Of a stretch of DNA of 64,000 nt, positions 17,350 through 58,971 are shown in pieces; position 1 is the stretch's first letter; each line of letters opens with the position of its first letter. The stretch is from Clostridia bacterium (lineage in GTDB: Bacteria; Bacillota; Clostridia; Christensenellales; Borkfalkiaceae), in the NCBI GenBank assembly GCA_029055875.1, contig JAIDCJ010000010.1:191473-255472 (forward strand), written 5' to 3'. A program made the translations under genes and the position numbers. A model generated the notes under the pieces. That model made no database searches. It saw only the letters and a program-made list of their open reading frames with translations, and was not told the DNA's origin.

Positions 17350-18060
17350 ATGCAACCCAAATATAAGCGAATTTTGCTCAAGCTCTCGGGCGAGGCACTC
17401 GCGGGAGAACAGAAGCACGGCATCAACGCCGAGGTTGTTGCGGGCGTCGTAGACCAGATTGCCAAGGTGCACGAGATGGGCGTGGAAATCGCGCTCGTTA
17501 TCGGCGGAGGCAATTTCTGGCGGGGACGGCAAGGCACGAACATGGACCGCGCAACCGCCGACTGCATGGGCATGCTTGCAACGGTAATGAACTCTCTTGC
17601 CATGATGGACGCCATTGAAAAGCGCGGCATTCCTACCCGCGTTCAGACGGCACTCAACATGATTTCCGTTGCCGAGCCTTACGTTTTAAGAAAGGCACTG
17701 CGCCACTTTGAAAAGGGGAGAGTCGTCATTATTGCGTGCGGTACGGGCAACCCCTACTGCTCAACGGATACCGCCGCGGCACAGCGTGCGTGCGAAATCG
17801 ACGCGGACGTCCTTCTCATGGCGAAGAACGTAGACGGCATTTACGACAGCGACCCCGCCACCAATCCCAAAGCGAAAAAGTACGAAACGCTTCATTTCGG
17901 CGATATCGTAAACAAGGGACTCAAAGCAATGGACGCCACCGCCGCAACCATGTGCATGGAGAATAATATCCCCGTGCTTGCATTCGGGCTTGGCGAAAAA
18001 GATTCCATTCTTCGCGCCGTCTGCGGCGAACATATAGGAACTTTAATTTCCAATAAATAA
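17350..18060 (+). CDS. pyrH: UMP kinase
   Basis: A 236-aa amino-acid-kinase-fold enzyme phosphorylating UMP to UDP. Signatures include [11 protein letters not shown] near the start, IGGGNFWRG (phosphate loop), the Cys/Thr-rich [15 protein letters not shown] region and the DGIYDSDP motif. The ATG at 17350 follows a good ribosome-binding site. It has its own promoter between tsf and frr. Confidence 0.97.
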
Positions 18061-18245
18061 TTTCGCGGATTTTTTCTGACGAAAAAACTCCGCGAGCTAT
18101 AAGCTCGGTTCAATAATCTTTCTTGCAGGAGCGTTGAACGGATTCAACAAAAGACAGTAAGCCGAAAGTAATCGGCAAATTGAGTCGTGTTACGGCGAAG
18201 TGAATTCGCCTAACACCCTAATTTTGAATATCAAAAGGAGAAACC
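18061..18245 (+). ncRNA. candidate structured RNA element, copy A (5' of frr)
   Basis: This 185-nt gap has no ORF but five stem-loops: H1 18064-18094 (13 bp, C88 bulged), H2 18093-18107 (CGAGCT/AGCTCG), H3 18133-18148 (GTTGAA/TTCAAC), H4 18161-18176 (GCCGA/TCGGC) and H5 18187-18216 (12 bp with one bulged C). Bases 18159-18218 are identical over 60 nt to 57408-57467. The other copy keeps H1-H3 with different sequences, which points to a conserved RNA fold. It could be a cis-regulatory leader of frr or a mobile repeat; I cannot name a known class. Confidence 0.6.
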
Positions 18246-48093: not shown

Positions 48094-48107
48094 ATAGGCA
48101 ATCGAAT

Positions 48108-48219
48108 ATTCTTTGGGGCGGAGTGAAATTCTCCACCGGCAGTAAAGTCTGCGAAGAGCGTGAGCTCCCGATCGGGTGCAATTCCCGAACCGACGGTATA
48201 GTCCGGATACGAAAAGAAA
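48108..48219 (+). promoter_or_regulatory. FMN riboswitch (RFN element)
   Basis: Canonical RFN segments appear in order: GGGGCGGAGTGAAATTCTCC, ACCGGCAGTAAAG, GCGAAGAGC, the CCCGATCGGGTGCAATTCCC region, and CCGACGGTATAGTCCGGAT closing P1. It lies between the promoter and ribU with a terminator behind it. Confidence 0.96.
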
Positions 48220-48237
48220 TGAAAAGCGAATTTTACG

Positions 48238-56035: not shown

Positions 56036-57313
56036 ATGGACAACAAGGTATTTACCGACAAAGTGAAAATCACCGTAAAGGCGGGCGACGGCGGCGACGG
56101 CATGAATTCGTTCAAAGCCTATAAGGGCAAGCCAGCCTGCGGGCCCGACGGCGGCGACGGCGGAAACGGCGGGAGCGTTTATTTCCTCGGCGATAAGGAT
56201 ATGAACGATCTTTTATCCTTCCGCTTTACTTCCAAATACGTTGCCGAAAACGGCGAGCGCGGCGGCACGAATCAATGTTCGGGCAAGAGCGGGAAGGATA
56301 TTATTATAAAGGTTCCCTGCGGCACGCTGGTGCGCGACTATGAGAGCGGGAAAATTATCTGCGATATTTACGAGGATGGCGAACAGGTTCGTATTCTCGA
56401 AGGCGGCAGAGGGGGCAAGGGCAACGTGCGCTTTACCACGGCGCGCCGCCATGCGCCCAACTTTGCGCAAAAGGGCGTAAAGACTTTGCCGCATACTTTA
56501 ATACTCGAAATGAAAGTGATTGCGGACGTGGGGCTCGTGGGCTTTCCCAACGTGGGCAAGAGTACGCTTCTTTCTAAAATTTCGGCGGCAAAGCCCAAGA
56601 TTGCGGACTATCACTTCACCACGCTTTCGCCGAACTTAGGCGTCGTTCGCCGCTATGAAAAGTCTTTTATCGTTGCCGATATTCCGGGGCTCATAGAGGG
56701 CGCGGCGGAGGGCGCGGGCTTAGGGCACGACTTCCTTCGGCATATCGAGCGTACGCGCGCTATCTGCCACGTGGTGGATATTTCGGGCGTGGAGGGGCGC
56801 GACCCGTTGGAGGATTTCGCAAAAATCAATGCGGAGCTGAAAAGCTATTCCGAAAAGCTTGCAGCTCTCCCGCAAATCGTTGCGCTGAATAAATGCGACT
56901 GCTTCGGTGCGGAGGAGAACCTCAAACGCTTCAAACGCAAGTACGGCAAAAAATACGAGTTGTTCCCGATCACCGCCTTGAAAGGGGAAGGGCTGAACGA
57001 GCTTTTGGATAGGCTCTCGGCGCTTCTTGAAACGCTGCCGCCTGCCGAGCGCATTCCCGCCGACGAGGACTTCGAGTTTGCCCAGAGCGACAATACGCAG
57101 TTTGAAATTTTCAAGGACGAAACGGGCGCGTACGTCGTTGTGGGCGGGCTGGTGGATATGCTTTGCAGAAACGTGGTGCTCACCAACCCCGATTCTATGG
57201 CGTACTTCCAGCGCGTTCTAAAACTTCGCGGCGTGTTTAAGGAGCTTGCGAAAATGGGCTGTAACGAGGGCGATACGGTTATCGTAGGTGAAGTTGAATT
57301 TGAATATGTGTAG
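56036..57313 (+). CDS. obgE: GTPase ObgE/CgtA
   Basis: A 425-aa essential GTPase for 50S assembly and stress signalling. It shows the glycine-rich OBG fold (GDGGDGMNSFKAYKGKPACGPDGG...), the G domain with G1 GFPNVGKST (about 168-176), G3 DIPGLIEGA, G4 NKCD, and a C-terminal OCT domain. I start at the ATG at 56036, which matches the family N-terminus; an upstream in-frame start would add 26 unrelated residues. The mRNA is probably leaderless. Confidence 0.97.
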   Translation: MDNKVFTDKVKITVKAGDGGDGMNSFKAYKGKPACGPDGGDGGNGGSVYFLGDKDMNDLLSFRFTSKYVAENGERGGTNQCSGKSGKDIIIKVPCGTLVRDYESGKIICDIYEDGEQVRILEGGRGGKGNVRFTTARRHAPNFAQKGVKTLPHTLILEMKVIADVGLVGFPNVGKSTLLSKISAAKPKIADYHFTTLSPNLGVVRRYEKSFIVADIPGLIEGAAEGAGLGHDFLRHIERTRAICHVVDISGVEGRDPLEDFAKINAELKSYSEKLAALPQIVALNKCDCFGAEENLKRFKRKYGKKYELFPITALKGEGLNELLDRLSALLETLPPAERIPADEDFEFAQSDNTQFEIFKDETGAYVVVGGLVDMLCRNVVLTNPDSMAYFQRVLKLRGVFKELAKMGCNEGDTVIVGEVEFEYV

Positions 57314-57498
57314 GGTTCACGAGATTTGTTGCAAGCAACAAATCTCCGTGAGGAAACTCACTTAAATGATTTTGAATACCGCTTGTCGTTGTGCGTCAAT
57401 CGACAACAAGCCGAAAGTAATCGGCAAATTGAGTCGTGTTACGGCGAAGTGAATTCGCCTAACACCCCTATTTTAGAAAATAATATGGAGTAAAAATT
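57314..57498 (+). ncRNA. candidate structured RNA element, copy B
   Basis: This 185-nt gap mirrors the one before frr: H1 57318-57350 (15 bp, C46 bulged in CTCCG), H2 57348-57361 (GTGAG/CTCAC), H3 57383-57406 (TTGTCG plus TTG paired with CAA plus CGACAA), then H4 and H5 inside the 60 nt (57408-57467) identical to 18159-18218. H1 to H3 keep pairing with changed bases relative to copy A. In both copies the 3' base of H1 overlaps the 5' arm of H2. The element ends 31 nt before the next start codon. Confidence 0.6.
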
Positions 57499-58971
57499 AT
57501 GACAACGCAAATGAAAGCATTCTTTTATGAGTACAAATACTACGCATTTCCCGACGGCGTAAAGTCGCTCGACGAGCTGAAAAAAATGCCGAGCGTGACT
57601 TGTATGCGCTTGAAAGAGGAGCGGTGCATGGCGCCCGATTTCATCTTCGAGAGCACGGAGGAGGAAACGCTTGCAATCGAGCACCCCGAGCGGCTGTTCG
57701 AGGTGAGCGTTACTATTCGCACGGGCGAGGAATACGACGAAATTCTCCGTAAACAGGTGGATAAAGTCTGCCACGACTGCGAACGCTATATCCCCGACGG
57801 CGACCCGCGCGATACGGGGAATTTAGACGGGCACCACCGCGAAATCTCGCTCGACGGCGTATGCTACGAGCGCGAGGGCAAGAACGATCCTTGGGACTTC
57901 GGCACCTGCGCAAAGGTGTTTTGGTACCGCATTTCAACGAAGCTCAACGAGCTTGCGAAGTATATTGATGCGGGCAATCAGAAAAAGCTCAACGCTGTAC
58001 TTAATCGGGAGCTCCAAAACTTTATGTTCCCCGCGAACTTCTACGGCGGCGTGCATGAGGGCAAGTACTGTCTCACGTTTATGCCCGATTTCGACCACGT
58101 TCCCTTCGTCCGTCTGCTGTACCGTTATTTGACGGAGGTTGCCATGCAGGACAACTCGGAAATCAAAGAGGCGGGTTGGGAGGTGTTCCCTTGCCGCAAA
58201 CAGGGCGTGTTCCGCTATACGGGCAAGCACAAGTTCCGCAAAGAGCTTGCGCGCATCGTTCCCGCGGAGAACCCCAACGGCGTCGGACTGGAGCTCTACT
58301 GCAAAAAAGCCGACGATAAAAAACGCTATGCGCTCTTTCAGGATTTGTTTGCCTATCTCGCGGAACAAATCGGCGAGGCAAAGGCTTATACGCTCGTGAC
58401 CGAAGTGACGATCTCGGCGGATAAAACGGATAAAGTGCCCGTTTCCGAGCTTATTCCCGCGCTTGAAAAGAAGTATCGGGAAGCTTACGGCGACGAAGAG
58501 CAGTATCCCGCTCCGCTCGGCTACGGCAGCCACGGCGGCGAGCACGACTTTCCCTTCCGCGAAAAAATTACCGAGGGCGCAACGGTCTGCCCCGATATCA
58601 GCTTTTTGACGCTCGAAACGCTGCACGAGGCGTGGTGGATGGATTTCTGCGGGTTTGCCTATTTGTACGTACCGCACTCTCCTGCCGACGCGCTCGAAAC
58701 GGTGTCCTGGTATCTTGCGAACGGCAACCTCGTACCCGAGCCTCTTCGCGATCCCGAAGAGGGCGGACTCACGGGCGGCAGCGCAGGCGTGGGCTTCTGC
58801 GGGGAAGACGGCTTTATTCTCGACTGCTTCGTGGCGAGCGAGAAGGCGTTCTTCCGCAGACTGCGCATTATTGCACCCGTGCTTCAAAGCTACGGCGTGA
58901 AGCTGGTTACGGTTAAGAAAGAGGGCGTCACCGTTTACGACTGCGGTTATCAATTTACGATTTCGGAGTAA
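57499..58971 (+). CDS. 490-aa protein of unknown function
   Basis: I do not recognise this soluble protein. It opens with TTQMKAFFYEYKYYAFPDGVKS, has a Cys/His-bearing segment VCHDCERYIPDGDPR (about residues 88-102) followed by LDGHHREISLDGVCYE, and ends in a beta-rich region (VKLVTVKKEGVTVYDCGYQF). There is no signal peptide or TM helix. GGAG precedes the ATG. It sits between obgE and yhbY where nadD and related genes are often found, and follows the second copy of the repeated RNA element, which may be its leader. Confidence 0.7.
   Translation: MTTQMKAFFYEYKYYAFPDGVKSLDELKKMPSVTCMRLKEERCMAPDFIFESTEEETLAIEHPERLFEVSVTIRTGEEYDEILRKQVDKVCHDCERYIPDGDPRDTGNLDGHHREISLDGVCYEREGKNDPWDFGTCAKVFWYRISTKLNELAKYIDAGNQKKLNAVLNRELQNFMFPANFYGGVHEGKYCLTFMPDFDHVPFVRLLYRYLTEVAMQDNSEIKEAGWEVFPCRKQGVFRYTGKHKFRKELARIVPAENPNGVGLELYCKKADDKKRYALFQDLFAYLAEQIGEAKAYTLVTEVTISADKTDKVPVSELIPALEKKYREAYGDEEQYPAPLGYGSHGGEHDFPFREKITEGATVCPDISFLTLETLHEAWWMDFCGFAYLYVPHSPADALETVSWYLANGNLVPEPLRDPEEGGLTGGSAGVGFCGEDGFILDCFVASEKAFFRRLRIIAPVLQSYGVKLVTVKKEGVTVYDCGYQFTISE

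Follow-up and report, generated by a model that had tools for sequence, protein, structure and literature searches.

The window, a stretch of 64,000 nt from a Clostridia bacterium of the family Borkfalkiaceae, contains two intergenic gaps of 185 nt each: one separates the pyrH stop codon from the frr ATG (positions 18061-18245) and the other lies between the obgE stop and a 490-aa open reading frame (57314-57498). A 59-base repeat pattern matched both gaps without a mismatch, the number of matches expected in shuffles being 0, and direct sequence comparison extended the identity to a 60th base and ended it at the 61st, bearing out the shared 60-nt block of the original prediction. The gaps folded at -61.2 and -57.6 kcal/mol (z-scores of -5.8 and -5.1), with 0 of 200 shuffles as good. 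Visible in these folds were H4 and features that had been described earlier, namely, H1 and its bulged C, an H2 that overlaps the H1 base, and a 12-bp H5, which also carries a bulged C; both copies end about 30 nt before a start codon, as had been stated. Throughout the copies analyzed, the repeat measures about 165 to 175 nt and follows the general order H1, H2, H3, linker, H4 within the core, CAAATTG, H5, and an A/T-rich tail near ATTTTGGAA. H1 begins with TTC, finishes with GAG, and usually contains the bulged C, and H5 exists as several unrelated sequence classes. Coordinates of the window copies and their modules are compiled in Table 1.

Table 1. Features of the two repeat copies in the window
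Feature	Positions	Strand	Context or basis
Copy 1 of the repeat	18062-18228	+	pyrH (stop 18058-18060) to frr (start 18246); 3' end of tail approximate
Copy 1 H1, TTC...GAG, bulged C	18062-18096	+	Fold; re-pairing across copies
Copy 1 H2, overlaps 3' base of H1	18093-18107	+	Fold; without support in own-genus test
Copy 1 H3	18108-18139	+	Fold; H3 covariation in sister genera only
Copy 1 conserved core: H4 (18161-18176) and CAAATTGAG	18153-18184	+	Core pattern, re-pairing, covariation
Copy 1 H5, 12 bp with bulged C	18187-18216	+	Fold; swap test
60-nt block identical to 57408-57467	18159-18218	+	Sequence match
Copy 2 of the repeat	57316-57478	+	obgE (stop 57311-57313) to 490-aa gene (start 57499); 3' end of tail approximate
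Copy 2 H1	57316-57352	+	Fold; re-pairing across copies
Copy 2 H2, overlaps 3' base of H1	57348-57361	+	Sequence, fold
Copy 2 H3-like hairpin	57383-57406	+	Fold
Copy 2 conserved core with H4 (57410-57425)	57402-57433	+	Fold, re-pairing, covariation
Copy 2 H5	57436-57465	+	Fold; swap test

No Rfam 15 family reached its gathering threshold on either copy when the whole window was searched, in agreement with the initial failure to recognize a known RNA class. At a relaxed threshold, the best result on copy 1 was Enterococcus-1 (21.9 bits versus a threshold of 71.4; E value of 0.016), and 15 further loci with copies yielded no Rfam match on the element at an E value of ≤1. The window's only match at the gathering threshold was an FMN riboswitch (48105-48222, + strand; 101.8 bits). 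RNA genes can be neighbors too: at locus L012 (positions 1135-1399), the feature immediately upstream of a copy is a large signal recognition particle RNA (165.9 bits). An exact 25-nt pattern found 0 matches in the public genome collection, viral contigs contained 0 matches with the core pattern and none for the 490-aa protein, and no description of this repeat was seen among the papers listed in literature searches.

Searches of related genomes revealed a repeat of high copy number and narrow distribution. The genome of origin (1.6 Mb in 25 contigs) holds 5 copies, two of them in the window. A degenerate core pattern matched at least 120 stretches in the public genome collection, nearly all from uncultured Clostridia, with one of the matches listed in Candidatus Gallimonas gallistercoris. 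As proposed in the original prediction, related clostridial genomes were searched with a covariance model, built from 72 copies out of 76 candidates, which recovered many copies: 72 of 81 genomes of the genus contained the element, 16 of them with at least 40 copies, and the other 9 gave no match. At the family level, the element was present in 61 of the 201 genomes and in 4 of the 18 genera sampled. Three of the 291 genomes in a class-wide sample matched, two belonging to the genus itself and one to another genus of the family; the 287 genomes from outside the family and one further family member showed no match. These large-scale searches were run with stricter filters, under which weak matches are lost. 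A plain DNA search was positive in 36 of 101 genomes; it hit other families of the order twice, both times weakly and over a very short stretch (E values of 0.004 and 0.01), and we take these two matches as chance. Genomes of sister genera contained up to 71 matches. Contigs stop 22 to 63 nt past a copy in six loci, as a repeat that breaks assembly would cause, so counts in fragmented genomes may be too low.

The stems of the repeat change in sequence while keeping their pairing. The search pattern left three H4 pairs free, and these were counted in 140 copies: the first is C-G in 95, G-C in 41, and something else in 4; the second is G-C in 88, A-T in 42, and C-G in 10; and the third is A-T in 94, C-G in 23, T-G in 11, T-A in 9, and G-C in 3. 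The covariation score of H4 was 0.605 versus 0.136 after shuffling, and no slid register exceeded 0.15. Within the genus, H1 arms scored 12.7 with their own partner versus 7.1 with that of another copy, and H5 arms scored 18.2 versus 14.6 upon swapping (123 of 140 copies, those with nested inserts or short ends being excluded). The same swap test failed for H2 (15.1 with self and 15.5 swapped) and for a helix around H4, and a covariation scan of the own-genus copies found no convincing helix in the H2-H3 region. In the sister genera, H3 scored 22.8 versus 15.6 swapped and H2 scored 21.4 versus 16.9. An alignment of their H3-H5 portion, comprising 39 of 84 copies picked for a clear linker, showed changes on both sides in 20 of 25 pairs and a score of 0.414 versus 0.118. 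The earlier claim that the 5' hairpins are re-paired thus stands for H1 in the own genus and for H2 and H3 in the sister genera, and it found no support in the own genus for H2 (swap test) or for the H2-H3 region (scan). A fold of the whole alignment recovered only H4 plus parts of H1 and H5 because the stems differ too much between copies.

Some further structural observations were made along these alignments. In one locus with nearly identical tandem copies, H1 differs by a paired change (GTTA/TAAC versus GTGA/TCAC), which is a recent compensatory or template-switch event. The H3 loop of sister-genus copies keeps a GGGC.CAC..TATTATA-like motif, which contains a -10-like TATTAT, on a stem that varies (three loci serve as examples). 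A ribosome-driven switch between the H1 base and H2 was also considered; the overlap of the two is real in both window copies, but re-pairing failed in the own genus and the switch is not claimed.

Comparison of the pyrH-frr and obgE neighborhoods in relatives (30 loci each, own genome included) suggested how the repeat came to lie in the window. pyrH and frr are adjacent in 28 other congener loci, where 23 gaps measure 11 to 49 nt and five measure 120 to 447 nt and hold other sequence; the element is absent from all 28, the 447-nt gap being seen only over its last 230 nt. The 490-aa protein (57499-58971, + strand) has no Pfam match, and a relative follows obgE in 5 of the 29 other obgE loci, 12 to 32 nt past the stop and without the element. 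Judged from these empty sites, the repeat was inserted at both positions in the window. The original prediction had offered, as one of two options, an undescribed cis-regulatory RNA, that is, a leader controlling the downstream gene (frr or the 490-aa gene). A structured element with a conserved core about 30 nt before a start codon in both window copies is what such a leader would look like, but it is missing from 28 of 28 congener loci ahead of frr and from 5 of 5 ahead of the 490-aa gene, its neighbors are unrelated genes, 19 copies lie between convergent genes, the next start codon is 59 to more than 1,000 nt off in the loci examined, and no Rfam family matched at threshold. The regular neighbor of the repeat is the upstream stop codon rather than the downstream start, and we regard a downstream-gene leader as highly improbable.

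The second option, a mobile RNA-like repeat, gained support from the many copies, the empty sites, the tandem copies, which occur about 173 nt apart, and the diversity of the neighboring genes. Copy number, empty sites, and tandem arrangement lead us to infer that the element is mobile and probably non-autonomous. The element shows both hallmarks of small interspersed, MITE-like repeats: many dispersed copies without genes, and empty sites in relatives. Inspection by eye of the printed flanks, around approximate ends of the element, disclosed no constant target duplication. In two other species (loci L202 and L203), elements sit behind the same stop codon, that of the gene following obgE; they share an H5 class and have unrelated H1 arms. 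H1-like hairpins also occur directly behind the obgE stop in one locus and about 14 nt behind it in another; neither was found to be accompanied by an exact CAAATTG core motif, and both of them are therefore leads only. Other repeats were noticed around the copies. H1 loops can hold a G-rich repeat (gggggagggtgg..., in three loci), so other inserts seem to be tolerated there. In five loci, another dispersed repeat, recognizable by the motif GTCATTTCGAG, lies beside or within copies, and a common flank like tgtgtagttgtca(a/g)tttgcg just upstream of H1 in four loci is perhaps another repeat or a shared insertion site.

Hairpins near both ends and a bias in orientation could also mark a non-autonomous derivative of a known mover, such as IS200/IS605 or RAYT (Y1) elements, a group II intron or other reverse transcriptase, IS110 with its bridge RNA, or an integron attC-like site. 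attC sites follow the stop codons of cassettes, and bridge RNAs are similar in length to the repeat; both traits fit. The three enzyme families examined, however, did not track the copy number: PF01797 (Y1_Tnp) occurred in 20 of 81 congeners and 2 of the 16 genomes with at least 40 copies, PF00078 (RVT_1) in 16 of 81 and 3 of 16, and PF01548 (IS110), above its cutoff, in 4 of 81 and 0 of 16. Upstream genes are housekeeping genes, not cassettes. No gene was enclosed by H1 in any of 125 copies, and the 5' arm did not fare clearly better at distances of 300 nt to 3.2 kb. We consider descent from one of these movers very unlikely.

The placement of the repeat is striking. In 43 of 101 copies, a same-strand stop codon (TAA in 26, TGA in 9, and TAG in 8) precedes the start of H1 by 0 to 5 nt, counting in-frame stops of same-strand frames of at least 90 aa and those of the 140 distinct copies whose H1 begins with TTC. 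A second, later set from the own genus yielded 16 of 40 (56 cores minus 14 duplicates left 42 new ones, 2 of which lack H1); coming from the same genus and partly from the same species, it is non-overlapping with the first set but not fully independent of it. In the sister genera, 11 of the 31 copies with a clear H1, out of 84, occupied this position. By way of control, a same-strand stop at any distance up to 60 nt was found for 13.7% of random positions. The mirror arrangement, with a gene ending toward the 3' side of the copy no more than 60 nt away, was seen in 18 of 101, 8 of 40, and 8 of 31 copies, somewhat above this control, which refers to the other side, with no peak at any one distance in the first set. 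In every set, the majority of copies lie elsewhere than 0 to 5 nt behind a called stop, some of them following another copy.

With a codon-trained gene caller, the gene called on the 5' side was on the same strand in 68 of 77 copies, and co-directional gaps contained 37 sense versus 6 antisense copies (P = 1.6e-6). Convergent gaps, which are symmetric for a count of strands, held 19 copies, divergent gaps held 0, and one copy lay inside a gene; the background of gene pairs was 456 co-directional, 75 convergent, and 72 divergent. Compared with uniform placement, 28 of 56 copies began 0 to 5 nt behind a stop, where about 1.5 were expected, and the mirror placement was found in 0 of 56. The same held within convergent gaps (8 of 19 versus about 0.5 expected). 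The 3' end of the element abuts the next gene in no gap examined. Upstream genes are diverse and of housekeeping type: 18 of the 20 proteins scanned, from 32 listed, had a Pfam match, and their products include IMP dehydrogenase, YchF, phosphotransacetylase, SecA, glutamine synthetase, phosphoglycerate kinase, and LepA. At 0 to 5 nt, the structure lies well inside the 15 nt behind a stop codon that serve to define REP-like placement.

Sense placement after stops of diverse genes would be expected of a functional 3'-untranslated-region module, e.g., an mRNA stabilizer, an attenuator, or a ribosome-stalling structure, that is under selection and whose spread is secondary, and E. coli REPs provide a precedent according to PMC12306157. 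At the two loci compared, however, congeners do not share the sites, and 9 of 81 congeners gave no match; selection for such a module as the primary cause is, in our view, rather unlikely. The base pairs themselves bear on the question of selection as RNA or as DNA. H1 stems of the own genus comprise 1,107 Watson-Crick, 5 G-U, and 16 A-C pairs, and H5 stems comprise 623, 4, and 7, respectively. Summed over the helices counted, 49 G-U versus 43 A-C pairs reveal no overall strand preference. An unrestricted stem count gave 34 G-U and 45 A-C pairs in the own genus and 18 and 50 in the sister genera, an A-C excess to which a shift in register at the bulged C may contribute. Because the stems are so poor in G-U pairs and favor neither strand overall, an effect on the mRNA is no more than a possibility.

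Such stems, almost purely Watson-Crick, can be read as a palindrome at the DNA level, whose hairpins would have a role, if any, during movement, as single-stranded DNA or cruciforms, and whose pairing is restored by template switching or copy exchange, with no RNA function. Template switching can create and restore stems, as described in PMC8794818. Since perfect stems are obtainable in this way as well, the covariation found here does not prove RNA function; the covariation check suggested by the original prediction thus gave a strong signal that does not settle RNA versus DNA as the selected form. The lack of overall strand preference, the A-C excess over G-U in the unrestricted count, and the pair of species in which unrelated H1 arms accompany the same H5 class behind one stop codon all agree with a DNA palindrome. 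Against it, H4 on its own favors the sense strand (9 G-U versus 1 A-C), and repair of palindromes leaves the sense, post-stop placement unexplained. We consider this explanation plausible, though less likely than not.

Taken together, the two gaps hold copies of a small interspersed, modular, and strongly structured repeat that is mostly sense-oriented, very often placed just after stop codons, and probably mobile. Such a repeat would enter or survive chiefly just behind stop codons, where it would become an untranslated part of the host mRNA, with H1 then positioned under or beside the terminating ribosome. By analogy with E. coli REPs, it may stall ribosomes and lower output; alternatively, it may block 3' exonucleases. 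The placement itself can be read in two ways, namely, as targeted insertion or as free insertion with survival only at these sites. The more specific idea that insertion is aimed at sites of translation termination in the sense direction, perhaps via an RNA- or ribosome-linked step, each copy then forming a post-stop structure in a host mRNA that the terminating ribosome reads, is speculative and in itself unlikely. Either way, the copies, in sense orientation within housekeeping operons, constitute a natural series for testing what stop-proximal structures do to termination, recycling, and the decay of mRNA, and the exchange of whole hairpins with pairing kept offers a natural test of template switching versus RNA selection.

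The nearest precedent found in the literature is the group of E. coli REPs near stop codons. Like the repeat described here, REPs are palindromic, occur in many copies, and in many cases lie within 15 nt behind stops; ribosome stalling at REPs so placed is reported in PMC12306157, which cites Liang et al. 2015. They differ in size, 20 to 40 bp according to PMC3733652 versus about 170 nt and five hairpins here; by the count given in PMC12306157, only 11% of them lie within 15 nt of a stop; and the REP transposase family (Y1) does not track the copy number of our repeat. The pneumococcal BOX, RUP, and SPRITE elements are likewise small, interspersed, and structured, BOX being modular, and PMC3049150 reads them as mobile parasites located near diverse genes and within transcripts. 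As described there, 60.8 to 63.3% are on the leading strand, mirroring the coding bias, BOX distances to genes follow a general decay, and SPRITE cluster near the 3' ends of genes; compared by description only, the repeat differs in placing H1 0 to 5 nt behind the stop in half of the copies so compared (28 of 56). The bcr1-bcr18 repeats of the Bacillus cereus group are also clade-restricted and interspersed; some are MITE-like, some have a conserved RNA structure, and they are often within transcripts (PMC3446304). No post-stop rule is mentioned in the available portion of PMC3446304, a comparison again made by description only. We therefore read the repeat as belonging with small interspersed repeats of the BOX/bcr/REP kind, albeit larger, module-swapping, and mostly in sense orientation after stop codons. 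Its distinguishing features are the five-hairpin order, the exchange of modules, and the post-stop, mostly sense placement.
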